A stretch of DNA of 43,553 nucleotides, taken from the NCBI GenBank assembly GCA_937902595.1, contig CALELH010000620.1, positions 1 to 43,553 of the forward strand, written 5' to 3'. This document shows, piece by piece, positions 2,968-37,590 of this stretch. This DNA is from an uncultured Myxococcales bacterium (GTDB lineage: Bacteria > Myxococcota_A > Bradymonadia > UBA7976 > UBA1532). The notes under the pieces were generated by a model. It had not been told where the DNA came from and ran no database searches. It worked only from the letters and a program-made list of their open reading frames with translations. How positions within the stretch are numbered: position 1 is the first letter of the stretch; each line of letters begins with the position of its first letter. Made by a program: the position numbers and the translations under genes.

Positions 2968-5457
2968 TTGAGATATGTCCTTACATTCGTCGTATTGGCG
3001 TTCACTTTGGCGGGATGTCCCCAGCCAAAGCAGTCAAACACGCGAGTGACACCTCCCCCAAGCGGGCAGGGACATTTCACGACTGACGATGGCGTGCGGT
3101 TGACTCTGTTTACGCCTATGGGTCGGATCAAATATGGCGAGACCAAGAGCGGAACTATCGCCGCAGGTGGCCTCACCGGGTTTGTCGTCGCGGCGAACCC
3201 TGGCGACCGCCCGGTCTTCACCCTAAGAAGCCGCAGCTCTGGCACCTTCAGCGTAACTGCATACGGCCCACGGTCTTCGACGGGCCTGTGGGGCGATCAC
3301 AGCTCAACGAAGAGCGGCGCCGCGCCCACCATATTGGAGACTTGGATGCCCACCTCTAGCGGAGATCACTTTGTTCTCCTCAGAGTGTTCGGCGCAGCGA
3401 GCGCAGACATCGAGGTCACCGTCACCTGTGAAGGCTGCGCTCCGCCTGAATGCGAGGCCCTAGACGCGTGTAACGTCTACTGCCCGGATGGCCTGGTCCA
3501 CGACGATGATGGCTGCTTAGGCTGCACATGCTCCGGCGCCACCTGTCCATCCACCGGATGTCAGGGAGACGGCCTATGTGTTTTTCCTTGTGGCCGTGGG
3601 ACCTGCCCCGATGGAGACACCTGCATCGGCGGGCAATGTGAACAGGGCAGCGAACTGTGCGGTGTCGAGCGGTGCGAGCGAGGAAAAGCATGCGTCGACG
3701 GCGAATGCAGGCCGACCGCCTTTGAATGCAAAGATCCCACGGATACCTGTCGTGAAAGATGCCCTGATGATCTACGCCCGGTCTGCGCGGTAGTGGAAGA
3801 TCGCCGTCAGACCTTTACCAATCGCTGCGAAGCAGAATGCGGAGGTGCGGAGGCGATCATGGACGGCCGGTGTGAATCTGGATGCGGGCCGATGAACCCA
3901 TGCGACGAAGGCCTTGAGTGCGTGCGCGGCCAGTGCAGACCCAGGGAGTGTGAATGCCCGAACCCAAGTGAAGACATGCGTGTCTGCGGACGGTCCGGTG
4001 CCACGCACCCATCTGCCTGCCACGCTCAATGCGCCGAGGACCCCGTCGCTTACCGTGGCGAGTGCGGAGAAAACTCATGTGAGTCGTCGGCTGATTGTCA
4101 ATTTGATCAGGCGTGCATCCCCGTGCTTCGCGGTTCGACAAACCGAGGAAGAATGTGTGATCCCGAATCTGATCCTGACTGTATTTTGCAGTGTCGACCA
4201 TTGCCGAGATGCAGCACCAACGAGCCATGTCCACGACGACAGCAGGCGTCACTGGGCTGCTATCCGGTCACCTCAGACGTCGGAATCTGCCTGCCGACCT
4301 GCAACGTCCAGGACCCGAGCGCCTGCCGCTTTGGTCATTGCGCCTCAATCTTGCACCGGCGTGGTCGTGAGGTCGCCGCGGAGGGCATCTGCCTCCCACA
4401 GTGCGAGAGTGATGAGCAATGTCCAGGAAGCCTACGATGCTTGCCTGATCTCAGCGGAACGCGAGTCTGCCAGACCTGCGCGTGCGGCAACTTCCCGAGC
4501 GAGCAGGTCTGTACGGGCCGAGGTATATTCGAGAACAGGTGTCTCGCCCTGTGCGCCGGACTAGGCAGCGAGGCCGTGTCACGGCCCATCGACCGAGAGG
4601 TCTGTGACAGCCGCGACAATGATTGCGACGGAAGGATCGACGAGGACATCGCTCGCAGAGCGTGTGGTCAAGACGTGGGAGAATGCCGAGCGGGCGTCCA
4701 AGAGTGTACGGCTGACGGAGAGTGGTCAGCCTGTGTTCGCTCCGTCGGGCCAAGAGATGAGGTATGCGACGGTCTTGATAATGATTGCGATGGACATGTG
4801 GATGAAGCCAACGATCTATGCCCAAACGGAGAGCCTTGTCCTCGACCAGACCATGTTCCTTTAGCCCGAGACTGTGGGATCGATAGCGATAATCCGCTGT
4901 GTGGCCAAGGTCGGCAAGAGTGCGTAAATGGATCCTGGAGCCAGTGTGTGAGCTTCCAAGCCCCCTCCCGTGAGATCTGCGACGAGATCGACAATGACTG
5001 CGACGGTCGCGTCGACGAGGCGGCCGACGGTAACGGCGCTGGCCCAGACAACTCGGGGTGCGGAAATCCACAGAATCCCTGTCAGGCGTGCCCCACCGAC
5101 TGGCGTCCCGTCTGCAGCCGCGACGGAACCGTCTATGCCAATGAGTGCGAGGTACGCTGCGCCGACGGGGTAGACGCGCTGCAGCCTCTCCAGCGCTGCT
5201 ATGGGCTGGCTGAAGAGCTCCCTGTGCGCTGTAGAGCCGATAATCAATGTCGCCAAATGGGTCGAGATGGTCAGCTTTGTCTCAATGTAGACGCAGGGGC
5301 GGACGCCTTCGCAGACGTGAGCGCACCGCTCTCTGAGTGGGCGGAGTGCCTCGCCAACACTGGAACATGTGCGTGCGCGGCGAATCGCTGCGGTTTCATC
5401 GCCACAGCCCAGACACGCCGCTGCCTACCCATGGCGCAAGTAGCACCAATGGACTAG
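2968..5457 (+). CDS. Secreted Cys-rich lipoprotein with Kazal-like modules and three MopE-like DNDCDG motifs
   Basis: Lipoprotein signal LTFVVLAFTLAGC. Kazal-like segments RPVCAVVEDRRQTFTNRCEAEC and RPVCSRDGTVYANECEVRCA. MopE-like DNDCDGRIDEDI, DNDCDGHVDEAN and DNDCDGRVDEAA. Confidence 0.85.
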   Translation: MRYVLTFVVLAFTLAGCPQPKQSNTRVTPPPSGQGHFTTDDGVRLTLFTPMGRIKYGETKSGTIAAGGLTGFVVAANPGDRPVFTLRSRSSGTFSVTAYGPRSSTGLWGDHSSTKSGAAPTILETWMPTSSGDHFVLLRVFGAASADIEVTVTCEGCAPPECEALDACNVYCPDGLVHDDDGCLGCTCSGATCPSTGCQGDGLCVFPCGRGTCPDGDTCIGGQCEQGSELCGVERCERGKACVDGECRPTAFECKDPTDTCRERCPDDLRPVCAVVEDRRQTFTNRCEAECGGAEAIMDGRCESGCGPMNPCDEGLECVRGQCRPRECECPNPSEDMRVCGRSGATHPSACHAQCAEDPVAYRGECGENSCESSADCQFDQACIPVLRGSTNRGRMCDPESDPDCILQCRPLPRCSTNEPCPRRQQASLGCYPVTSDVGICLPTCNVQDPSACRFGHCASILHRRGREVAAEGICLPQCESDEQCPGSLRCLPDLSGTRVCQTCACGNFPSEQVCTGRGIFENRCLALCAGLGSEAVSRPIDREVCDSRDNDCDGRIDEDIARRACGQDVGECRAGVQECTADGEWSACVRSVGPRDEVCDGLDNDCDGHVDEANDLCPNGEPCPRPDHVPLARDCGIDSDNPLCGQGRQECVNGSWSQCVSFQAPSREICDEIDNDCDGRVDEAADGNGAGPDNSGCGNPQNPCQACPTDWRPVCSRDGTVYANECEVRCADGVDALQPLQRCYGLAEELPVRCRADNQCRQMGRDGQLCLNVDAGADAFADVSAPLSEWAECLANTGTCACAANRCGFIATAQTRRCLPMAQVAPMD

Positions 5458-22009: not shown

Positions 22010-23656
22010 ATGAAAGTGCCCACATTGAAGATCACAAGTCATGTGTCCCTGCTCGCTCTGTTCTGCTGTGCCTTATTGACAGCGTGTGTGGCCAAGGAGC
22101 CGGCTCAACCCGAGGGCAACAGCGCTGACAGTGGAGCCCCCGACGAAAGAGAGCCAAATCCGTATCTAGATCTCGACGAAGATGGATATCCACCCAACGA
22201 TGGGGACTGCGATGACACCGATGACACCGTAAGTCCCGACGGACGGGAGGTCTGTGATGACGGAATTGACCAAGATTGTGACGGTGAAGACCTCAACTGC
22301 GAAGACGCCGATCAAGACAGAGATGGCTATAGCCCTGCTGAGGGTGACTGCGATGACGAAGACAATCGACGTCGGCCTGGCCGGCTAGAGACCTGTGATG
22401 ATGGAGTCGATCAAGACTGTGATGGGAGAGACCTTCCCTGCACTGAGGTAGACCAAGACGGAGACGGTCTGAGCGAAGCCGAAGGCGACTGTGATGACAT
22501 GAACCCCAGGGTCAGGCCAGGGTTTGGAGATCGCTGTGGAGACGGCATCGATCAAGACTGTAGCGGGTCCGACCAAGAGTGTTCGACGGGCGGTGACCGG
22601 GATGGAGACGAAGTCGTCGATGAAGAGGATGTATGTCCGGAGACCCCTGATCCGCTGCAATCAGATGGTGATGGAGACGGCGTGGGAGATCTCTGTGACA
22701 ACTGCCTGAGAGTTTCCAATGCTGACCAGGCTGATCGGGACAACGATGGGGTCGGCGACCTCTGCGACGACGATGAGGACACCGACGGAGATGGGTTCTC
22801 GGCGACGCGAGGAGACTGCGATCCTGATAACCCCGACGTCTATCCGGGCGCTATGGAGACATGTAACCAAATCGACGATGACTGCAACGGGTTTGCCGAT
22901 GATGGCTGTCCGAGTGACCTGAGAAGCGAGACAGTGCGCTTCGCGGCCGGGCCGAGCCTACTCGGTAGCTTGGACGCAGATCCCGACAGGTGCTTGATGG
23001 ATCCACGCTCCGACGAGAACTGTGACGAGGTCCCTCAACGAGAGATCCAATTGAGCGCGTTCTCAATCGATGTACACGAGGTGACCAACGCTCAGTATGC
23101 TGCGTGTGTCGAAGCGGAGCGATGCCGTCTGCCGGACAATCAGGATCGCTATAATGACCCACAATACGCGAACCATCCTGTGGTCTGGGTGAACCAAACA
23201 CAGGCATCAGGCTACTGTGGCTGGGCGGGCGGCAGCCTACCGACAGAAGCTCAGTGGGAGCGCGCCGCGCGTGGCGCCAGCCCGCTGATGCACAGTCGAT
23301 ATATCACGGGTGACGCCGCCCCCACTTGCCAGCAAGCAAATCTACTCGGCTGCGGAGGAAGTACGGTCGATGTTGGCACGACGGCAGGAGACGTCACCGC
23401 ACAAGGCGTCCAAGATCTGGTGGGCAATGTCCACGAGTTCATTCAGGGATGGTACGACCCAATCTATTACCGCCGCCTGCGTCCTCAAGACCCGATGGGG
23501 CCAGAGGCGCCCGGCATGATGGGCCTGATCCCGGTGAGAGGCGGTAGCTTCGCCGAGACAAGCGACTTCTCTACCATCACGTATCGTGGATTCCGGCATC
23601 TCATGAATAATCGAATCGAAAGTGATCGCGTCGGCTTCCGCTGCGCCCACGACTGA
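22010..23656 (+). CDS. Lipoprotein with MopE-like and thrombospondin-type-3-like Ca-binding motifs and C-terminal FGE/SUMF1-like domain
   Basis: Lipobox LLALFCCALLTAC. DGDCDDTDDTVSPDGREVCDDGIDQDCDGEDLNC repeats. DGDGDGVGDLCDNCLRVSNADQADRDNDGVGDLCDDDED. FGE-like DVHEVTNAQYAACV...GWAGGSLPTEAQWERAARG...VRGGSF...YRGFR. Confidence 0.87.
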   Translation: MKVPTLKITSHVSLLALFCCALLTACVAKEPAQPEGNSADSGAPDEREPNPYLDLDEDGYPPNDGDCDDTDDTVSPDGREVCDDGIDQDCDGEDLNCEDADQDRDGYSPAEGDCDDEDNRRRPGRLETCDDGVDQDCDGRDLPCTEVDQDGDGLSEAEGDCDDMNPRVRPGFGDRCGDGIDQDCSGSDQECSTGGDRDGDEVVDEEDVCPETPDPLQSDGDGDGVGDLCDNCLRVSNADQADRDNDGVGDLCDDDEDTDGDGFSATRGDCDPDNPDVYPGAMETCNQIDDDCNGFADDGCPSDLRSETVRFAAGPSLLGSLDADPDRCLMDPRSDENCDEVPQREIQLSAFSIDVHEVTNAQYAACVEAERCRLPDNQDRYNDPQYANHPVVWVNQTQASGYCGWAGGSLPTEAQWERAARGASPLMHSRYITGDAAPTCQQANLLGCGGSTVDVGTTAGDVTAQGVQDLVGNVHEFIQGWYDPIYYRRLRPQDPMGPEAPGMMGLIPVRGGSFAETSDFSTITYRGFRHLMNNRIESDRVGFRCAHD

Positions 23657-27810: not shown

Positions 27811-30102
27811 TCATCGCGGGGTCAATTTCACCTTGACCTTGACCGTCGTCTCTTTGCCCCAATCAAGGTTCTCTCTCTTCTCTATGAATCCTTGTTTTCT
27901 AATCAACAACGAGACCCGCCGCTCTTTTCGTTTAATGTTTGGCTTAGTGAGCGGCGTGTCGCCAATATACCGACCGTCGAGATAGACCTCAGCCTCCGGT
28001 GGATCTGAGGTGACCACGAGGGTGCCTTGAGACCTCTGCAGTACGAATTGCCGGCGAACCTCCACCACCCCCTGCTCGTTGGCCATCCCGGCGATGCTCA
28101 AGCTTTCGGTATGGGATCGATACCCGTCCCGTTCAAGCCTCACATCGTGCCGGCCACCCACGGTAAACCCTTCGATTCTAGCAGGGGTCAACTGACTGGA
28201 TCGGTCTCCATCTACAATCACCGTCGCCCCCGGTGGTGACGAGCCGATCACCAAGACAGCGGCGCTCACTGGAGGATCCATGATGATCGGTGCTAATTCG
28301 AGCGCCGCATAGGTGATCAACCCAAGCAGCGCGATGACGGTGACCCCACCTGCGCTAAAGACCTTGGCCTTGAGCCGCTCCCCAATAGACATGTCCGGCT
28401 GACTTTGCCTCGACTGTCTCAGCTTTAGGGGAGACGGGGTGCGCGGTCTGGCCGAAGGCGCAGACCGGTTCTTTTCTGAGACCTCGTTGGCGCTCTGCCT
28501 ACCTTGAGGTCTTGGATGTTCTACCGGGTCTGGCGTCACCTCAGATGTAGACCTGGGCACCGCCGCAGGCACACGGGGGGCACTGTCAGGCGTCAACTCA
28601 GACGTCGAACTGGGCACCGCGGCAGGCACACGTCGGTCACCGCCTGACGTCTGTGGTTGTGGTGGTAGAGAAGGCATATCCGGAGTCGTTTTCAAGTGAA
28701 GATCAGGCTCCGGATCGGCTGTTCTCTTAGGCTCCGCTAGCTCATGGGCAGAGAAGACAGACGTCGGCTCATCGGACGCCCCCATTGAACCTGTGACCTC
28801 TGATGTCACCGACTGAATTGAGTCATTCTGAAACATTGACCCATCCAGAAGCTCGGTGTGCTCACCAGACTCTGCCCAACCGCTCGAAGAGACCGAGCTT
28901 GGCTCTACAATGGCGTTGGTTGACTTCGTCAACTCATCGACGTTGTACATACTGGCCATGGTGACGTCGCCGTCATCATAATCGATGGAGCCAGTCGCTG
29001 GCTGATCGTCTTCCCAATCCTCCACCTCTTGCAGCTCTTCAGCGCCTAGAGCGAAGATCACGCTCTGACCATAGGTTCGGTCGAAGTCTTCGGCTTCCAT
29101 GAGTGGGTCATCTGGAACAAGAGGGCTGGGCACCGTAGGCGGGTCTTCGGGGCTCGCGGCGACCATCGTCGCCTCGGAGCGATCCGTGAAGTTCTCCTGA
29201 AGAAACTGACCCACTCTCTGCTGACTAAAGCTGGGCCAATGACCATACAGGAATGAAGAGAGGGCGGTCTGTAGAGCACCTGCGGATGAAAAGCGGTCGT
29301 CTCGGTCGCGCGCGAGGGCCTTCATCACGATCTCTTCCAAAGCTGGAGGGATATCGGGCCTACGCTCACGAATATTGGGGATGACCGCTCTTCGAACCTT
29401 ATCTAAGAGAACCAGCGCCCGGTCTTCCTTGTAAAGCATCTCCCCAGTGATCATCTCATAGAGGCAGATCCCACAACTGAAGACGTCACTTCGGCCGTCA
29501 AGCGGGTCACCCCAAGCCTGCTCAGGAGACATGTAGAAGAACTTGCCTTTGATGACCCCGCTCTCCGTCTGTTGTCGTCTTTGGTTGGCTTTGGCGATCC
29601 CAAAGTCGACGAGCTTAACTTGGCCATCAAAAGAGAGAAGTACGTTTTGTGGGCTCACATCGCGATGGATCAGATTGAGCGGTCGCCCGTAACGGTCTGT
29701 CTTTGTGTGGGCATACTGAAGCGCCGCGGCCGTCTCCTTGGCGACGAAAGCGATGATATCGAACGGGATCGATACATCATCTTCGGCGCAACGCACTAAG
29801 AGTTGATAGAGGTCGCGACCATCCACAAACTCCATGGCGATGTAGTAGGCGTCATCAATACAACCAAGATCGAATATCTGACCCACATTCACGTGGTTGA
29901 GTTGCACGACGATCTTCGCTTCGTCGATCAGCATATCAATGAACTCTTGGTCTTCCGCGTACTTAGGATGAATGACCTTAAGAGCCAGATATTTTTCGAA
30001 TCCCCCGATCCCTGTGGTCCGCGCGAGGTAGATCTCTGCCATCCCTCCAAGCCCGATCCGCTTGATTAGCTCATACGGACCGAGACGAGAGCCTTCTTGC
30101 AC
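27811..30102 (-). CDS. Membrane Ser/Thr protein kinase with two C-terminal PEGA domains
   Basis: GLGGMAEIYLA, LALKVIHP, HRDVSPQNVLLSF, DFGIA. TM VTVIALLGLITYAALEL. PEGA IGSSPPGATVIVDGDRS and VTSDPPEAEVYLDGRYIGDTPL. Confidence 0.95.
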   Translation of the reverse strand: MQEGSRLGPYELIKRIGLGGMAEIYLARTTGIGGFEKYLALKVIHPKYAEDQEFIDMLIDEAKIVVQLNHVNVGQIFDLGCIDDAYYIAMEFVDGRDLYQLLVRCAEDDVSIPFDIIAFVAKETAAALQYAHTKTDRYGRPLNLIHRDVSPQNVLLSFDGQVKLVDFGIAKANQRRQQTESGVIKGKFFYMSPEQAWGDPLDGRSDVFSCGICLYEMITGEMLYKEDRALVLLDKVRRAVIPNIRERRPDIPPALEEIVMKALARDRDDRFSSAGALQTALSSFLYGHWPSFSQQRVGQFLQENFTDRSEATMVAASPEDPPTVPSPLVPDDPLMEAEDFDRTYGQSVIFALGAEELQEVEDWEDDQPATGSIDYDDGDVTMASMYNVDELTKSTNAIVEPSSVSSSGWAESGEHTELLDGSMFQNDSIQSVTSEVTGSMGASDEPTSVFSAHELAEPKRTADPEPDLHLKTTPDMPSLPPQPQTSGGDRRVPAAVPSSTSELTPDSAPRVPAAVPRSTSEVTPDPVEHPRPQGRQSANEVSEKNRSAPSARPRTPSPLKLRQSRQSQPDMSIGERLKAKVFSAGGVTVIALLGLITYAALELAPIIMDPPVSAAVLVIGSSPPGATVIVDGDRSSQLTPARIEGFTVGGRHDVRLERDGYRSHTESLSIAGMANEQGVVEVRRQFVLQRSQGTLVVTSDPPEAEVYLDGRYIGDTPLTKPNIKRKERRVSLLIRKQGFIEKRENLDWGKETTVKVKVKLTPR
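28533..28632 (-). repeat. Two-copy imperfect tandem repeat (57-bp period) in the kinase linker
   Basis: Encodes RVPAAVPSSTSELTPDSAP / RVPAAVPRSTSEVTPDPVE. Confidence 0.8.
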
Positions 30103-30390
30103 GCGCTTGCTCGCTTTTGTTACGGGGTGAATTCCTACCTGAGTCTAGCCGGCCTGATAGAATAACAGCAAGCTTAGCGATCCGAAGCACGGGTCCTGTT
30201 CGCCGAGAGGTCCCTCACGGCCTCCGCAAACGACCAATAGATAATCACTTCTGCATCAGAGTTCATCGTACGTCATAGCGACACCTAAAGACTATTTCCA
30301 CGGTGGGGTGGTCGACGTAGAGTTGAGTCTCGTAGTAGATTCCCACACCGGGTTCAGGTTCAAGAACGTCCATAAACCGAGGAGGCCTCG

Positions 30391-33300
30391 ATGACATTCG
30401 ATACCAAGCTACTGAAGACCACGCTGCGCGCAGCCGCGCTGCTGCTTCTCTTCGGCGCTTGCGGTCAATCATCGGGTTGCTCTGGATGTGGTGGAGAAAA
30501 AGAGGCGAGCTTCCCCGATAAGGACCGGGTGCATAGCGCCGCGCAGCTCCGCGTCACTCGCAGCGGATTGACCTTTCTCGAAGAAAACCTAGAGCCGCTG
30601 CTTGCGGCCGCTCTCCCAGAAGGTGGTCTGAACATCTGCTTGCCGGGCGAATCAGGCCGAACAATTGGGATCAATTATGGGTATTGCCACCAAGACATGT
30701 GCGCTGAAGGGGGCCTCGGTTGCCAACTAAACATCGCCATTGGAGGTGTAGATCTCACTGCTGAGGAACCCAACACGATCCGCGCGTTGATCGAGTTCGA
30801 CGCGCTGTCTGCGCGCATTCCGATCGAAGCCAGCCCCATCGCCGAGTGTGCCATCCTCATTGATGGATCCGGTTTCAACGTTGAGTTTCCCTTGACCTTA
30901 CTCACGCCGGAGCCTGAACGCTTTTTGAGCTTCGAGTTGGCGGAGAACCCACAATACCAACTGAGCGATATCGACGTTCGGTTTGAAGGAGAGGGAGGAT
31001 TCCTGGGCTGGATCTGCGACGGCATCAGCCTGGTCGTCAATCTCCCCTTCATCCGAGACCTCATCTTCGACACGATTCAGACATTCGTCGATGGGTTACT
31101 GGCCGACCAGATCCGAGGCTTTGTCGAAGATTTCACCTGTCGGACCTGTGAGAGCGATCGCGCCTGTCCAGGAAACCTCGGCGCGACGTGTAACGATGGG
31201 CGGTGTGAGTTTCCCAATGGCCGCTGCGTCGCCGCCAAACTTGGAATAGATGGTCGGTTAGATGTCGGTGATGTGCTGAGCACCGTGACACCTGGTCTGA
31301 ACGCGGTGGTCGACTATCTCGCCGTCGCAGGAAGCTACGCTGAGGTCGAGAACGGCGGGCTGTCCTTGGGTGTCGTCAGTGGCGCGATCAGTCAGAGAAA
31401 CCGATGTGTGCCCCAGGTCGTTCAACCACAAGTCTTTGAGCCGATGCGGACAGATCTCCTGAGGGGAAACCTCGATCTATTAGAGCGTGATTATCATCTG
31501 GGTATTGGTGTGACCCGTGAGATCGTGGAGCATTTTACCTGGGCATTTTTCAACGCAGGCAGCTTGTGCGTTCAGATTACGAACGCGACGGTTGAGCAGT
31601 TAAACGCTGGAATATTGAGTATTGTGCTCCCAGACCTCGCAAATCTGGCCGGTAATCCAGAGGCCCCGGTCGCCATTGCTCTGGCACCACAAAACCCGCC
31701 AGAGGTCGTGTTCGGCAACAACCAGTTTGAGATGGACGAAGAAGGAAACAGGGTACTGGTCGATCCGGCGCTCCTCATTCGGATCCCTGAGCTCTGGTTG
31801 GATTTCCACGTGTTCATGGAGGATCGCTGGGTGCGCATCTTCAGTCTGCACGCCGACATCGAGCTACCCGTTGGCCTAGACTTCACACCCAACAACGAGA
31901 TCATTCCAATTATTGGAGACCTCTCAGAGGGCCTCACAAATATTCGAACAACGAACAGTCGGATCATGCGTGACAGTCCCGATCTATTGGGCACCCTGCT
32001 ACCCGCCCTCCTTTCAATCTTCGTCGGTGACTTGGTGGGCGGGATCGTTGAGCCGATCGCGCTGCCCGATCTCCTCGGCTTCAGTTTGGACATGCAAGAT
32101 GGATCCATATCTTCCATCGAAGAGGGGGCATTTCTGGCCATCTTCGCCCGCCTCGCACAGGCTGAAGCACCAGCGCCAGACGGCGAGATGGGCGAGATGG
32201 GCGAGATGGGCGAGATGGAGGCTCCTCTGAGCGCGACCGTCGAGACTCGTATCAACGACGTCCTAGTGAACACACCCGACACTCACGAATTTAGAGCCGC
32301 AGGACCCAATACCTGGAAGCGCATCGAGGTGCTTCTCGAGATCGAGGCGGGCGACGGTCGAGCAATCGAGAGTCCAATGGAGGTCTCCTGGAGGGTCGAT
32401 GGGTCCACTTGGAGCCCTTTTCAGCCCGCGGGAAATCTAGTAGCGCGGCATCCCATGTTCTTGCTTCAAGGTCGCCACCAGTTGGAGGCGCGGGCGCGGA
32501 GAGTTGGGGACTATAGAAGCTTAGACGCAACGCCTGACAGCGTTGAGATTATCATCGACTCCATCCCACCAAACCTGACGTTAGAGGCGAAGGACGGTGT
32601 TGTTCATATCACCGTAGACGACATGGTGTCTCCGCGGGGGTCGATGCTCCTAGAGGTGCTCAGAGCGGGCGATCGATGGGAGGAACTCCACGAACCCGTA
32701 GTCGAATGGGACGGAGAGGGTCTACTCGTCATTCGCGCGACGGATGAGGCCGGTAATGAGGTCACGGAGAAACTTGGCGAAGGACGCGCTGCGCTCATCG
32801 GTCGTCCACCGATCGATCAACGAGGTCAGACGGGCTGCGACTGCGACGCGAGCGGCTCCAGCCCAGCAGGTCTTTGGTGGCTCAGCCTCCTCATTTTGGG
32901 ACTAAGACGAAAGAGACGGATGACGAGCGCTCTGCTACTCGTAGTTGCGCTCTCCGTCATCTCGATGGGGTGTGATGACAGCTCAGGTGCGAGTAAAGAT
33001 GGAGATCCCGACGGTGGCGTATCTCCCACCCTTTGTACGGATTCTAGTGAATGTGCTGAGCCCAACGAGGCCTGTCTAAGCGGTCGCTGCGGGCTAGTTG
33101 ATTGCCGAGATGGCTCCGACGTATGCGATCAACTCTCGTGTCCGGACGGATCACCCAGGTGTAATGATCGCGGCCTCTGCGAATGCGAACCTTTCTGCGC
33201 CCAAGGGTGTCCAGAAGGCACCTACTGTTGTCCCGCTGAGGATGCCTGTAGGCCGCTACCTGAGGAGTGTACAGAGCTGCGATGTGACCCGTCTCAGGAG

Positions 33301-34602
33301 CGCCGAGTCGAGTTTGTGGATGAAGGCAACCCCCTGGCGTGCGGGGACGAGATCTTCGAATGTGAGTGTCTCGATCAAGCCCCATTAGCGATTGGAACCA
33401 TCGGTCGATTCAATGACATCGCCGTCGTCGGTGACGTGCTTTGGGTCTCTGCATACTCGGATACATACGGTGATCTGGTCGTCGGTCGGTACAATCAAGC
33501 GACGGGTTTTGAGTGGCAGTGGGTCGATGGCTTACCCGCCGAAGGGATACCCGAAGCAAACCCGACCGGTCCAAGAGGCGGCCTCATCGGCCCAGGTCCT
33601 AATGTTGGACAGTACACAGCCCTCGCCGCAGCAGAGAACGGAACGCTCCACGTCGCTTACTACGATGTTGACAACCGTACCCTCAAATACGCTCGGGGTA
33701 CTCTCGATGGAGACGTACATGTCTGGGTCACAATGACCTTGGACGCTGACGGTGATGCGGGTCGATGGGCTAGCATAAGCCTCAGTGATGATGGGGCACC
33801 CGGGATCGCGTATCGAGTGGCCAGCTTGGAGGGCGTAAGCCAGCTTCGCTACCTACAAGCGGCGAGCTCGACCCCGATGAACTCCGACGAATGGGGTGAG
33901 CCGCTCATCATTCATACCCGCGCGCTGGATGATCCCGATCCCGAGACAGGCGCCTATCCAGAAGGTACGGGACTCTTCACTACGCAAGACCGAGACCCAG
34001 ACGGTCTCGCGGTAGTCGCCTGGTATGATCGAACAGAAGGCTCACTGTGGTGGGCACGAATGAATGACGCTGGTTTTGATGAACCAGAGATGCTCGCCGG
34101 CTGGGGATATCAAGATCCCGACAGAGATGGAGATATGGGCGCCAACGTCGACCTCGTCTTTGATGCGACCGGCGAAGCGCATGTCTGCTATCAAGATGGC
34201 CTCACCGACTCTCTCCGATATTTGGCACCAGGTTTGGACCACGATGAATGGGTCGACGACGGCGTGTGGCTTGACGTCGGCGGGCGAGGACATTCCGTCC
34301 ACATCGTCGGGGATGACTGCAATATGCTCACAGATCTCCAGGGCAGACCGCTCATCGTGTATCAAGACAGCACCATGCAGGCGCTGCTATTGCGTCGCCG
34401 AGACCAAGTGACGCCGGATCTGATCGAAGGATGGGGTAGGCGGCGCGCGCTCCGCGGAGACGGTGGCGCCATCATGGGCGCGTTCGGTTTCTACGCCAGC
34501 GCACGGCGAAGCGGAAACCAGGTCTGGATCGTCCACTTCGTGTATCGAAACCACCTAGAAGAGCCTGAAAATGGGCTAGAGGTGCTCACCGTAGAGCTCT
34601 AA
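30391..34602 (+). CDS. Giant surface lipoprotein ORF; reads as an in-frame fusion of a MYXO-CTERM-tailed protein and a second lipoprotein
   Basis: N-terminal lipobox LLLLFGAC. MYXO-CTERM-like GCDCDASGSSPAGLWWLSLLILGLRRKRR immediately followed by MTSALLLVVALSVISMGCDD. No stop between them. Confidence 0.8.
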   Translation: MTFDTKLLKTTLRAAALLLLFGACGQSSGCSGCGGEKEASFPDKDRVHSAAQLRVTRSGLTFLEENLEPLLAAALPEGGLNICLPGESGRTIGINYGYCHQDMCAEGGLGCQLNIAIGGVDLTAEEPNTIRALIEFDALSARIPIEASPIAECAILIDGSGFNVEFPLTLLTPEPERFLSFELAENPQYQLSDIDVRFEGEGGFLGWICDGISLVVNLPFIRDLIFDTIQTFVDGLLADQIRGFVEDFTCRTCESDRACPGNLGATCNDGRCEFPNGRCVAAKLGIDGRLDVGDVLSTVTPGLNAVVDYLAVAGSYAEVENGGLSLGVVSGAISQRNRCVPQVVQPQVFEPMRTDLLRGNLDLLERDYHLGIGVTREIVEHFTWAFFNAGSLCVQITNATVEQLNAGILSIVLPDLANLAGNPEAPVAIALAPQNPPEVVFGNNQFEMDEEGNRVLVDPALLIRIPELWLDFHVFMEDRWVRIFSLHADIELPVGLDFTPNNEIIPIIGDLSEGLTNIRTTNSRIMRDSPDLLGTLLPALLSIFVGDLVGGIVEPIALPDLLGFSLDMQDGSISSIEEGAFLAIFARLAQAEAPAPDGEMGEMGEMGEMEAPLSATVETRINDVLVNTPDTHEFRAAGPNTWKRIEVLLEIEAGDGRAIESPMEVSWRVDGSTWSPFQPAGNLVARHPMFLLQGRHQLEARARRVGDYRSLDATPDSVEIIIDSIPPNLTLEAKDGVVHITVDDMVSPRGSMLLEVLRAGDRWEELHEPVVEWDGEGLLVIRATDEAGNEVTEKLGEGRAALIGRPPIDQRGQTGCDCDASGSSPAGLWWLSLLILGLRRKRRMTSALLLVVALSVISMGCDDSSGASKDGDPDGGVSPTLCTDSSECAEPNEACLSGRCGLVDCRDGSDVCDQLSCPDGSPRCNDRGLCECEPFCAQGCPEGTYCCPAEDACRPLPEECTELRCDPSQERRVEFVDEGNPLACGDEIFECECLDQAPLAIGTIGRFNDIAVVGDVLWVSAYSDTYGDLVVGRYNQATGFEWQWVDGLPAEGIPEANPTGPRGGLIGPGPNVGQYTALAAAENGTLHVAYYDVDNRTLKYARGTLDGDVHVWVTMTLDADGDAGRWASISLSDDGAPGIAYRVASLEGVSQLRYLQAASSTPMNSDEWGEPLIIHTRALDDPDPETGAYPEGTGLFTTQDRDPDGLAVVAWYDRTEGSLWWARMNDAGFDEPEMLAGWGYQDPDRDGDMGANVDLVFDATGEAHVCYQDGLTDSLRYLAPGLDHDEWVDDGVWLDVGGRGHSVHIVGDDCNMLTDLQGRPLIVYQDSTMQALLLRRRDQVTPDLIEGWGRRRALRGDGGAIMGAFGFYASARRSGNQVWIVHFVYRNHLEEPENGLEVLTVEL
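32182..32217 (+). repeat. Perfect 9-bp x4 tandem repeat (ggcgagatg) encoding (GEM)4
   Basis: ggcgagatg repeated four times without mismatch. Confidence 0.97.
32830..32919 (+). other. MYXO-CTERM-like sorting segment inside the long ORF
   Basis: TGCDCDASGSSPAGLWWLSLLILGLRRKRR: C-x-C, Gly/Ser, hydrophobic helix, basic cluster. Confidence 0.8.
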
Positions 34603-36896
34603 CGACGCCTCTTCTTACTTCGTGAACGACGAGGCTTGACCGTCTTATGCCTCGTCTTTTGGCTGAAATAAGGAAGCTTCCCCTTACCTCCATAGAGATA
34701 TTGGTACGTGCCATACGTGGACATCACACGCTTGGTGTAGCCCCTCGCCTCCTCATACGGGATTAACTCAACGAAGAGATCCAGCGGTAGGTGGCCTCTC
34801 TGCTTAAGCCATTGCTTCAGTCGTCCAGCGCCTGCGTTATACCCAGCGGGTATGACCGGTAAGGCCGCGTTCGCTGCAGAGCGAACTCGCGATAGATACT
34901 TGGTGCCAAGGACAACATTGAAATCCGGATCCCTCAGACTCTTACGAGTCGCTCGACGTCCAGTGCCTCGAGCCATGTCACGAGCCGTAGGTAAGATGAG
35001 CTGCATCAACCCTATGGCGTTTGCTGATGACTCTATGCCGGCGTTGAACCCGCTCTCCTCCCGCATGATAGCGCGCGCCAAATCAGGTGGAATCGCGGCG
35101 GCTCGCGATTTCTCTCGAATCAATTGGCCAAAAGGTCGAGGAAACGCGACCGTCCAGGCGTCGCGATTCTTACCGATGGGAGCAGACCGTCGAAACTGAG
35201 TGAGGCGCCTGCGTAAGATGTTGTGACTCAGGGGATAAGCGCCAGCCTCATCTAATAACTCAGCTGCACGCCAGAGGGCCGCCGGTGCCTTTGTCTCCGC
35301 TCTACGTACAACGTCCCAGGCCGGTCGAGAGAGACCAAGTCGCGCGAGCTCCTTCGCTAAGGTCCACATGGAGTCATCACTCTCATAGGTATCCGTAAGA
35401 AAAGAGAGCGCTGCGCCCTTATCCTGCAGCGTCTTCAAACCTGTGGTCAGCCAGCGGTCAGCCCGCGTCCTGCTCTCCTCTCGCAATCGGCTGTACGCCA
35501 AGATCGAATACCAACTCAGAGGATACTCAGTCAGCGCTCGACGATAGTGACGCCGCGCCTCCGCTCGACGACCCAAGACTCGAGCAATACGGCCGCGCCA
35601 ATAGGTGCTCCGTCCGAGTTGGCCATCATGGTGCTTGGGAGGTGAGAGCTTCTCCTCTAAGGCGAGTACCCGATGTGCCCGCTTATATTGCCGCCTCTGA
35701 AAGGCGTTGATCGCGACATAGAAGATCGCGTCGGACATCATGTCTCCTCTTGGATAAAGAGGGACTTTCTCGGTGATGAAGACCTCTGCTGCCTCAACCT
35801 CACCCTTGTCATCGATGAGGTGACGGATGAAATGATAGACCGCATCATCAGCTAAACGATGCTTCGGGTTCTCCCGAAGCTGCGCCTTGAAATGCGCTGC
35901 TGACTCCGCATCAGCCCCTTTGACGTTAGCGGCCTTCGCTGCAAGATGCCGTGCCCAAGGGGCGAGGGCGTGATTGGCCGCAGCACACAGAGTCACCGCC
36001 TCCTCCAAGTAGGGCCGAGCTCGCTCCCACTTCCTTAGTTTTCGCAGACCACGACCAAGGGCATATCGATGACGACACAAACTCTCCTGATCCTTGAAGC
36101 GCCGAGTGAGGGGCATCAGTGTCTCTACAGCCTTCTTGTTTCGATGGGACTTCAAGAGCGCTTCACCCATCTGCAGACGCTGCGAGGGAGTCCGCTGAAG
36201 CCATTGGTCTTTCTGGGAGGCATCTAACTTGAGAACCTCTTTGGCTAATCTACCTCCCAGAGACGCTTGCCCTGACGATGGGTGCTCTATATCCAAAGTC
36301 CTCAAATACTTGATGGCTTCCGGGTAATCTTCTCTTTCGACAGAGACTCGCGCCAGGCCGAGCAGCGCGTTCGCCCTCTCGGAACGACCACCCTCTGCGA
36401 GAGATTTATAGACAGCCTCGGCCTCGGACAGGCGCCCCGCTTCTCTCAGTGTTCGCGCTTTTAAGCGTCGGAAACTCTGACCGAGTCGAGTCGGCTCGAC
36501 GATCGAATCAAGCGCCTCAATGGCCTTGTCGGCTCCACCCAACTCGAGGAACGCCTTCGCCCTCTGTAGCGCCGCAAAGCCTTTGAGGGGGTCCGTGAGT
36601 TTATCCAGATTCTCAAGACACTCTAGAGCCTGCTCTGTTCGGCCGGCCTTGAGCAATGCATAACCCTTTACGAGACGTGCATCTGCGGTTCTTGCGTCAA
36701 TCGCCTCGGCGGCACGTACCCACCTGTTTCTTGAGAGCAACTCTCGAACCAGCGGATCCTTACTGCCGAGCACAGCGAGCCCCGGCTCGGCCGAAGCAGA
36801 CGTAGGGAGCGCAATGCCCATCGTCAGCGCGACACCTAGGGCCATCCTGAGGAACCAATTTAAATTAGATCGAATAATTTTTCCGGACGTTTTCAT
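34599..36896 (-). CDS. Soluble lytic murein transglycosylase (Slt-like) with N-terminal superhelical repeats
   Basis: AIMREESGFNAGIESSANAIGLMQLILPTARDMARG and YNAGAGRLKQWL are SLT catalytic motifs. Preferred ATG at 36896 (MKTSGKIIRSN...) gives a signal peptide. Confidence 0.9.
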   Translation of the reverse strand: MKTSGKIIRSNLNWFLRMALGVALTMGIALPTSASAEPGLAVLGSKDPLVRELLSRNRWVRAAEAIDARTADARLVKGYALLKAGRTEQALECLENLDKLTDPLKGFAALQRAKAFLELGGADKAIEALDSIVEPTRLGQSFRRLKARTLREAGRLSEAEAVYKSLAEGGRSERANALLGLARVSVEREDYPEAIKYLRTLDIEHPSSGQASLGGRLAKEVLKLDASQKDQWLQRTPSQRLQMGEALLKSHRNKKAVETLMPLTRRFKDQESLCRHRYALGRGLRKLRKWERARPYLEEAVTLCAAANHALAPWARHLAAKAANVKGADAESAAHFKAQLRENPKHRLADDAVYHFIRHLIDDKGEVEAAEVFITEKVPLYPRGDMMSDAIFYVAINAFQRRQYKRAHRVLALEEKLSPPKHHDGQLGRSTYWRGRIARVLGRRAEARRHYRRALTEYPLSWYSILAYSRLREESRTRADRWLTTGLKTLQDKGAALSFLTDTYESDDSMWTLAKELARLGLSRPAWDVVRRAETKAPAALWRAAELLDEAGAYPLSHNILRRRLTQFRRSAPIGKNRDAWTVAFPRPFGQLIREKSRAAAIPPDLARAIMREESGFNAGIESSANAIGLMQLILPTARDMARGTGRRATRKSLRDPDFNVVLGTKYLSRVRSAANAALPVIPAGYNAGAGRLKQWLKQRGHLPLDLFVELIPYEEARGYTKRVMSTYGTYQYLYGGKGKLPYFSQKTRHKTVKPRRSRSKKRRR

Positions 36897-37008
36897 TGAT
36901 GAATTACGGCTGCTTAACTCGGACTTATGGAAAATAGGCGATAACATGGGGAACACAACTTACCTGAATGGTGTCCAAGGTACGAGGGTCCGAAGGAGTC
37001 GAATCGCG

Positions 37009-37590
37009 ATGGAGGAACGCCAGCTGGTCAAACGGCTGAAGCAACGGAATGAGGCGGCCTTTACTCATCTGGTGCGTCTCCACAAGGTACGAATCTATAA
37101 CGTATGCCTTCGAATGATGTCTAACCGCGCTGAGGCCGAAGATATTGCACAAGATGTTTTTGTCCGCGCATTTATGTCCATTGCCTCGTTCCGTGGTGAC
37201 TCAGCCCTCAACACATGGCTGTACAGAATCGCGATTAATCTCTGCAAGAATCGCCTAAAATACCACGCCCGACGTAAAGCGAAGGTCCACACGAGCTTGG
37301 AGCCAATTCATGAGCGTGAGACAGCTGCGATAAACTCTACGGTGGGGGAGCCTGTTGCCAGGCCCGACCTCGTACTCGAGGGAAACGAAGCCCAGCAGCG
37401 AGTACAACGAGCCCTCGCCTCCATTGATGACAGTTTTAGGGAATTGTTAATCTTGAGAGACATTCAAGGACTCTCGTACATCCAAATAATGGAGATTACA
37501 CGATTGCCCGAGGGGACCGTCAAGTCCCGCCTGCACCGCGCTCGAGGCGCCCTGCGGCGTGCTTTTGACGAACAGGAAGAAATGGAATGA
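37009..37590 (+). CDS. ECF-family RNA polymerase sigma factor
   Basis: NEAAFTHLVRLHKVRIYNVCLRMMSNRAEAEDIAQDVFVRAFMSIASFRGDSALNTWLYRIAINLCKNRL (region 2) and FRELLILRDIQGLSYIQIMEITRLPEGTVKSRLHRAR (region 4). ATG at 37009 has upstream aaggag; an in-frame ATG at 36946 is possible. Confidence 0.92.
   Translation: MEERQLVKRLKQRNEAAFTHLVRLHKVRIYNVCLRMMSNRAEAEDIAQDVFVRAFMSIASFRGDSALNTWLYRIAINLCKNRLKYHARRKAKVHTSLEPIHERETAAINSTVGEPVARPDLVLEGNEAQQRVQRALASIDDSFRELLILRDIQGLSYIQIMEITRLPEGTVKSRLHRARGALRRAFDEQEEME

Follow-up and report, generated by a model that had tools for sequence, protein, structure and literature searches.

A two-lipoprotein open reading frame

The DNA analysed here (the window) is a stretch of 43,553 nucleotides, contig CALELH010000620.1, from the genome of an uncultured Myxococcales bacterium, which is a draft in 837 contigs (assembly GCA_937902595.1). 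At 30391-34602 it contains a single open reading frame (ORF) which probably specifies one translated chain that is cut into two lipid-anchored proteins, termed here H1 and H2. The frame is uninterrupted from the ATG at 30391 to the stop codon at 34600-34602 (1403 codons). The first-pass annotation, which described two lipoproteins joined in frame across a MYXO-CTERM sorting signal, was therefore correct on this point. The features of the ORF are listed below, with the evidence for each in brackets; the conserved cysteines refer to an alignment of 26 family proteins (A2), and the domain limits in H1 were taken from predicted secondary structure.

30391..34602, + strand: two-lipoprotein precursor, a single ORF of 1403 amino acids (orthologous single frames)
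30391..30462, + strand: N-terminal lipoprotein signal peptide of the first half, LLLLFGAC, last residue Cys24 (C24 conservation)
30463..32829, + strand: first mature half, H1, with a BPI/LBP/CETP-like double TULIP module at about residues 42-594 and beta-sandwich (Ig/FN3-like) domains at about 614-799 (AlphaFold2, Foldseek, weak Pfam matches)
32836..32844, + strand: MYXO-CTERM signature CDC (C816, C818), the presumed lipidation and myxosortase site (C818 conservation, TIGR03901)
32863..32904, + strand: putative hairpin helix 1, hydrophobic, running out to in (sequence, hairpin census)
32905..32919, + strand: RRKRR, the putative shared cytoplasmic loop (both the MYXO-CTERM tail and the n-region of the next signal peptide)
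32920..32973, + strand: putative hairpin helix 2, hydrophobic, with the H2 lipobox, last residue Cys861 (C861 conservation, stand-alone relatives)
32971..34599, + strand: second mature half, H2, with a Cys-rich module at about residues 862-985 and a beta-propeller at about 988-1403 (AlphaFold2, Foldseek)

The translation of 32830-32919 is TGCDCDASGSSPAGLWWLSLLILGLRRKRR. Within it the MYXO-CTERM segment, residues 816-843, starts with CDC and continues through a short stretch rich in Gly and Ser and a hydrophobic helix to RRKRR. The next codon, the ATG at 32920, begins MTSALLLVVALSVISMGCDD and opens the H2 signal, which runs from M844 to the MG preceding C861, that is MTSALLLVVALSVISMG followed by CDD. 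The MYXO-CTERM tail and the adjoining ATG had both been proposed earlier and the sequence agrees: the excised hairpin scored 24.3 bits with TIGR03901 (MYXO-CTERM; cut-off 20), while the whole ORF gave 17.3 bits, which is under the cut-off. The tail lies inside the chain and not at its extreme C-terminus, whereas G012, G063 and G122, relatives with separate genes, have it at the end of H1. Similarly, the H2 signal has the positively charged n-region, h-region and lipobox Cys of a lipoprotein, and LspA and Lgt are encoded in the genome, but it is internal in the window ORF where in stand-alone relatives it is N-terminal.

Conservation of the fused frame and the hairpin

When 58 related genomes were searched with the protein, 45 contained a member of the family; the homologue counts include paralogues, and many of the genomes are drafts. 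When orthologous loci were compared, as the first-pass annotation had proposed, 10 of the 11 complete junctions in the bacterium's own taxonomic family were fused in frame (G000, the window's genome, and G001, G002, G003, G004, G005, G008, G009, G010 and G011). The exception is G012, where the halves are separate; in G006 and G007 the gene is broken by contig ends. The nearest relative, of the same genus and 56-57% identical, is fused in frame with a different linker. All 39 full-length homologues from the class carry Cys, helix, Arg cluster, helix and lipobox Cys within one frame. The search was extended to the phylum by a named-genome scan with a 12-row alignment and a sample of 113 phylum genomes, and the fused form was found in Lujinxingia, in Polyangium-, Nannocystineae- and Kofleriaceae-type records and in other families, giving 67 fused ORFs examined in total. 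Judged from these frames, one gene for two different predicted surface proteins is conserved over much of the myxobacterial phylum.

The hairpin itself occurs more often than chance would give, as judged with a fixed rule (Cys, helix, Arg cluster, helix, [GASPN]C). The rule detected it in 66 of the 67 fused ORFs and in only 1 of 67 composition-shuffled copies; the ORF missed, L254, has a hairpin visible by eye. Reversed sequences were positive in 9 of 67 cases because the motif is nearly palindromic. The Cys-to-Cys length has a median of 52 residues (range 37-89) in this census, and within one class the linker from Arg cluster to lipobox Cys varies from 15 to 55 residues, always in frame. C24, C818 and C861 are invariant in all 26 rows of A2, and in the hairpin alignment (A1) the Arg columns are invariant or nearly so while the remainder of the hairpin drifts. 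An N-terminal lipobox was found by rule in 61 of the 67 fused ORFs, so lipid is expected at both ends of H1, on C24 and on C818. Two further families, NF058595 (lipo-invert, invert_tail) and NF033207 (midcut-by-XrtH), denote by name unusually placed lipobox-like or sorting signals. NF058595 aligned weakly to the hairpin, scoring 17.8 bits on the window ORF against a curated cut-off of 37, and reached this cut-off in none of the 58 genomes scanned. On a rough look many of its matches resembled ordinary lipoprotein signals, and assignment to it was rejected. NF033207 gave weak matches to 2 of 27 hairpins.

The halves also occur as separate genes. In G012 (L045) H1 ends in RRRRRGEDQ and a stop codon, and the H2 gene begins MSKTRLALLAALAALAFGCDD. 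The junction of the G063 genes (L238) reads TGATG; H1 there ends in a MYXO-CTERM and H2 starts with MNARTCLVGALALTLAGVANPGCSC. H1 with a terminal MYXO-CTERM and H2 with a lipobox lie on different contigs in G122, and in a G005 paralogue (L264) the two halves overlap by ATGA. Relatives of H2 that stand alone are ordinary lipoproteins, with the signal at the N-terminus. Breaks in the frame thus act as a natural experiment, almost all of them leaving two free, separately sorted lipoproteins. In a quick tree of 80 H2 sequences, which leaves the position of the H2-only group uncertain, the label 'separate' costs five changes, and three separations are nested in fused clades (L045, L238 and L194/L240). 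The arrangements in G063, the G005 paralogue and G012 suggest that one-base changes can interconvert the fused and separate states. The window's fused state matches its clade.

Paralogues of the two-lipoprotein gene were seen in the window's own genome (G000:C13, L002/L003/L266) and elsewhere (L263, L264, L265). The paralogue in G001 lies near a GGDEF-like ORF, mrtP, prfA and rho (mrtP named by profile, the others by eye from the ends of their ORFs), and in G003 and G005 a paralogue lies within ~8 kb of mrtP; the paralogue and the myxosortase gene are therefore linked in some genomes. Around the window gene itself (27811-37590) the order is Ser/Thr kinase, polyprotein gene, Slt-type lytic transglycosylase and extracytoplasmic function (ECF) sigma factor, and this order is common to the window and G001, G003, G005, G010 and G011. 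The Slt ORF is convergent with the polyprotein gene and overlaps its stop by 4 bases (34599-34602). Two more putative lipoproteins, annotated by eye, are found at 2968-5457 and 22010-23656 of the window; one is Cys-rich and the other has calcium-repeat-like stretches and an FGE-sulfatase-like C-terminus.

Proposed processing of the precursor and alternative explanations

The enzymes needed for a double cleavage appear to be available. The window's genome encodes the myxosortase MrtP (365.6 bits, cut-off 250), LspA (135 bits) and two Lgt genes (G000:C287 and G000:C675; Lgt score 201 bits), and a myxosortase exceeds its cut-off in 54 of the 58 relatives. The myxosortase MrtX cleaves MYXO-CTERM in a Cys-dependent manner, and MYXO-CTERM topology is inverted relative to that of lipoproteins (Guo, Haft and Wall, PMC11980579). 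The same authors proposed that MYXO-CTERM proteins are acylated beforehand, perhaps by Lgt, the acyltransferase not having been identified so far (PMC11980579). Two or more Lgt-family matches occur in many relatives, commonly as a neighbouring pair, and these extra genes are a possible lead for that acyltransferase.

The following sequence of events is proposed. The ribosome makes a single chain, as the conserved open frame shows, and the N-terminal signal would export H1. The MYXO-CTERM helix would then stop transfer, leaving RRKRR in the cytoplasm, and helix 2 would act as an internal lipoprotein signal exporting H2. Such a two-helix hairpin would place C818 and C861 both at the periplasmic face, where both may receive Lgt-type acylation. 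After this MrtP would cut after C818 and LspA before C861, and a hairpin peptide of ~42 residues in the window ORF would be discarded. The output would be equal amounts of a BPI-fold protein and a Cys-rich propeller lipoprotein. A few lineages make the same two proteins from adjacent or overlapping genes.

We consider it likely that the ORF specifies a true polyprotein, which is cut on either side of the membrane hairpin to yield two surface proteins anchored by lipid. Several observations count against this. The window lipobox has Ser at the -3 position and the lipoboxes of many relatives are degenerate. G117 (L257) has an untagged H1 and encodes H2 in its own lipoprotein gene, the overlap reading GTGA, which indicates that the tail is not essential to the H1/H2 pair. 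The enzyme tested in PMC11980579 was MrtX, not MrtP, and cleavage at both sites is inferred from sequence. The chain might never be cut, the hairpin serving as a permanent two-helix anchor with both halves in one inner-membrane protein, since a hairpin by itself would yield the right topology. However, invariant edge cysteines together with unconserved helices resemble processing signals and not a functional membrane domain, the separate-gene relatives give two free lipoproteins, and LspA and a myxosortase are encoded. A permanent anchor is thus considered unlikely.

Two further explanations were considered. H2 might be made mainly by internal initiation at the junction, the fusion being read-through noise. 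The window does have an ATG exactly at 32920, and the linker contains an ATG in 13 of 39 homologues, but 12 of the 39 lack any ATG, GTG or TTG between the Arg cluster and the lipobox, so independent translation of H2 is not a general mechanism. Moreover, an ATG or GTG with an upstream Shine-Dalgarno (SD)-like stretch was found in only 5 of the 39, the window ATG has no such stretch upstream, and the fused frames have been kept over deep divergence despite common indels in the linker. As neither linker start codons nor SD-like stretches are conserved, initiation at the junction was rejected as a general route and is very unlikely to be the main source of H2, though it may add to H2 output in some species. 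The other explanation, raised by the first-pass annotation, is that the join exists in this contig only, created from two genes overlapping as ATGA at 32920 by a mistake in sequencing or assembly or by the very recent gain or loss of one base. The +1 frame indeed reads GGA TGA at 32918-32923, overlapping separate genes are real in G063 and the G005 paralogue, and the genome is a draft. Against this, the same-genus relative, with its different linker, is among the 10 of 11 family members with a complete junction that are fused, the fused state recurs in 67 ORFs across the phylum, and the frame preference is constant on both sides of the junction. The fused orthologues and the frame preference make such an error scarcely credible for the window; two separate genes are a real state elsewhere (G063, the G005 paralogue and G012), and the annotation's other suggestion, a genuine polyprotein, is the one favoured by the homologues.

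The two halves and related systems

The AlphaFold2 model of H1 (pLDDT 83.8, pTM 0.79) is predicted to adopt a double TULIP boomerang fold of the BPI/LBP/CETP type. The best Foldseek match was BPI (1ewf, E 2.7e-16), with LBP (4m4d) and CETP (2obd) among the best that followed; the top five were BPI, LBP, BPI, CETP and LBP, with E values from 2.7e-16 to 4.9e-14 and TMt of 0.48-0.64. Among 34 members, matches to the Pfam families PF01273 and PF02886 (LBP_BPI_CETP N and C) were marginal, with best E values of 0.014 (1 member) and 0.0035 (2 members). The model of H2 (pLDDT 89.9, pTM 0.81) is predicted to combine a Cys-rich module with a lectin-like beta-propeller, the nearest structures being PLL-type lectins (8q82, E 4.7e-13, TMt 0.73, ~12% identity). 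When solved structures were searched by sequence, the 26-row alignment gave no significant match. The folds suggest lipid handling for H1 and glycan binding for H2. A variable H1 linker at 32180-32220 of the window contains an in-frame short tandem repeat, GEMGEMGEMGEM, and relative L046 has a similar Met/Asp/Gly-rich stretch at this position.

A BPI fold in bacteria is not new since DUF4403 is a full-length bacterial BPI homologue (PMC6791001), but H1 gave no match to DUF4403. H1 differs from BPI/LBP/CETP (TULIP) proteins and DUF4403 in its apparent anchoring at both ends, its extra beta-sandwich domains and its marginal sequence similarity, and H2 shares the propeller with PLL-type lectins but adds the Cys-rich N-terminal module. 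Our literature search found no paper tying the bacterial BPI fold to myxobacteria, and none on lipo-invert, midcut or bacterial lipoprotein polyproteins.

The ORF shares with the MYXO-CTERM/myxosortase system (TIGR03901, NF040674 MrtP, MrtX) the Cys motif, helix, Arg cluster and an enzyme in the genome; it differs in the internal position of the tag and in the use of the Arg tail also as a signal-peptide n-region. Rare internal MYXO-CTERM tags have been mentioned, namely in MXAN_5598 of Myxococcus xanthus, for which processing of the N-terminal part was proposed (PMC11980579). As here, MXAN_5598 is one ORF in which a surface region is followed by an internal MYXO-CTERM and then by another exported part. 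That second part, however, is an outer-membrane beta-barrel with OmpA domains, whereas here a lipobox follows and both halves are predicted lipoproteins, and the authors of PMC11980579 treated MXAN_5598 as an isolated, atypical example that might have arisen by gene fusion, while the present join is conserved phylum-wide. In TraA/TraB of M. xanthus (as cited in PMC11980579) the ORF of a MYXO-CTERM protein likewise overlaps that of a partner envelope protein, but as two genes instead of one frame and with unrelated domains.

Scanning the relatives with the A1 profile revealed the same join in ORFs unrelated to the two-lipoprotein gene, whose domains were named by eye from the sequence. Examples are the lipobox-type joins in L139, L140, L142/L146, L143, L145, L148, L150 and L151, and apparent signal-peptidase-I-type joins in L144/L153, L152, L154/L155 and L156; the second part of L154/L155 is apparently OmpA-like, as in MXAN_5598. 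L139 lies in the window's own genome (G000:C57:760-927) and is a 1038-amino-acid ORF with an internal MYXO-CTERM, then a lipobox signal, its hairpin occupying residues 729-785. The occurrence of these joins in unrelated ORFs suggests that exported proteins joined tail to head recur in myxobacteria. More tentatively, hairpins of MYXO-CTERM plus signal peptide might be a general myxobacterial device, employed by several unrelated gene families, that yields two envelope proteins at a fixed ratio from a single chain. Its most widely conserved user would be a doubly anchored BPI-fold lipid handler paired with a lectin-like propeller, acting in surface lipid or outer-membrane traffic.

What is new is that the internal MYXO-CTERM, previously a rare oddity, is found phylum-wide and is paired with a second sorting signal. 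If the proposed processing is correct, MYXO-CTERM tags would routinely act inside proteins instead of doing so as a rare exception, and bacteria would possess a cellular polyprotein strategy in which one membrane hairpin couples two lipidation systems of opposing topology. As a normal lipobox shares the same face of the same hairpin, the precursor would also be a natural substrate for asking how MYXO-CTERM proteins acquire lipid. Its products would be a pair of surface proteins found across the phylum, including one with a BPI-like lipid-binding fold, in organisms noted for outer-membrane exchange.

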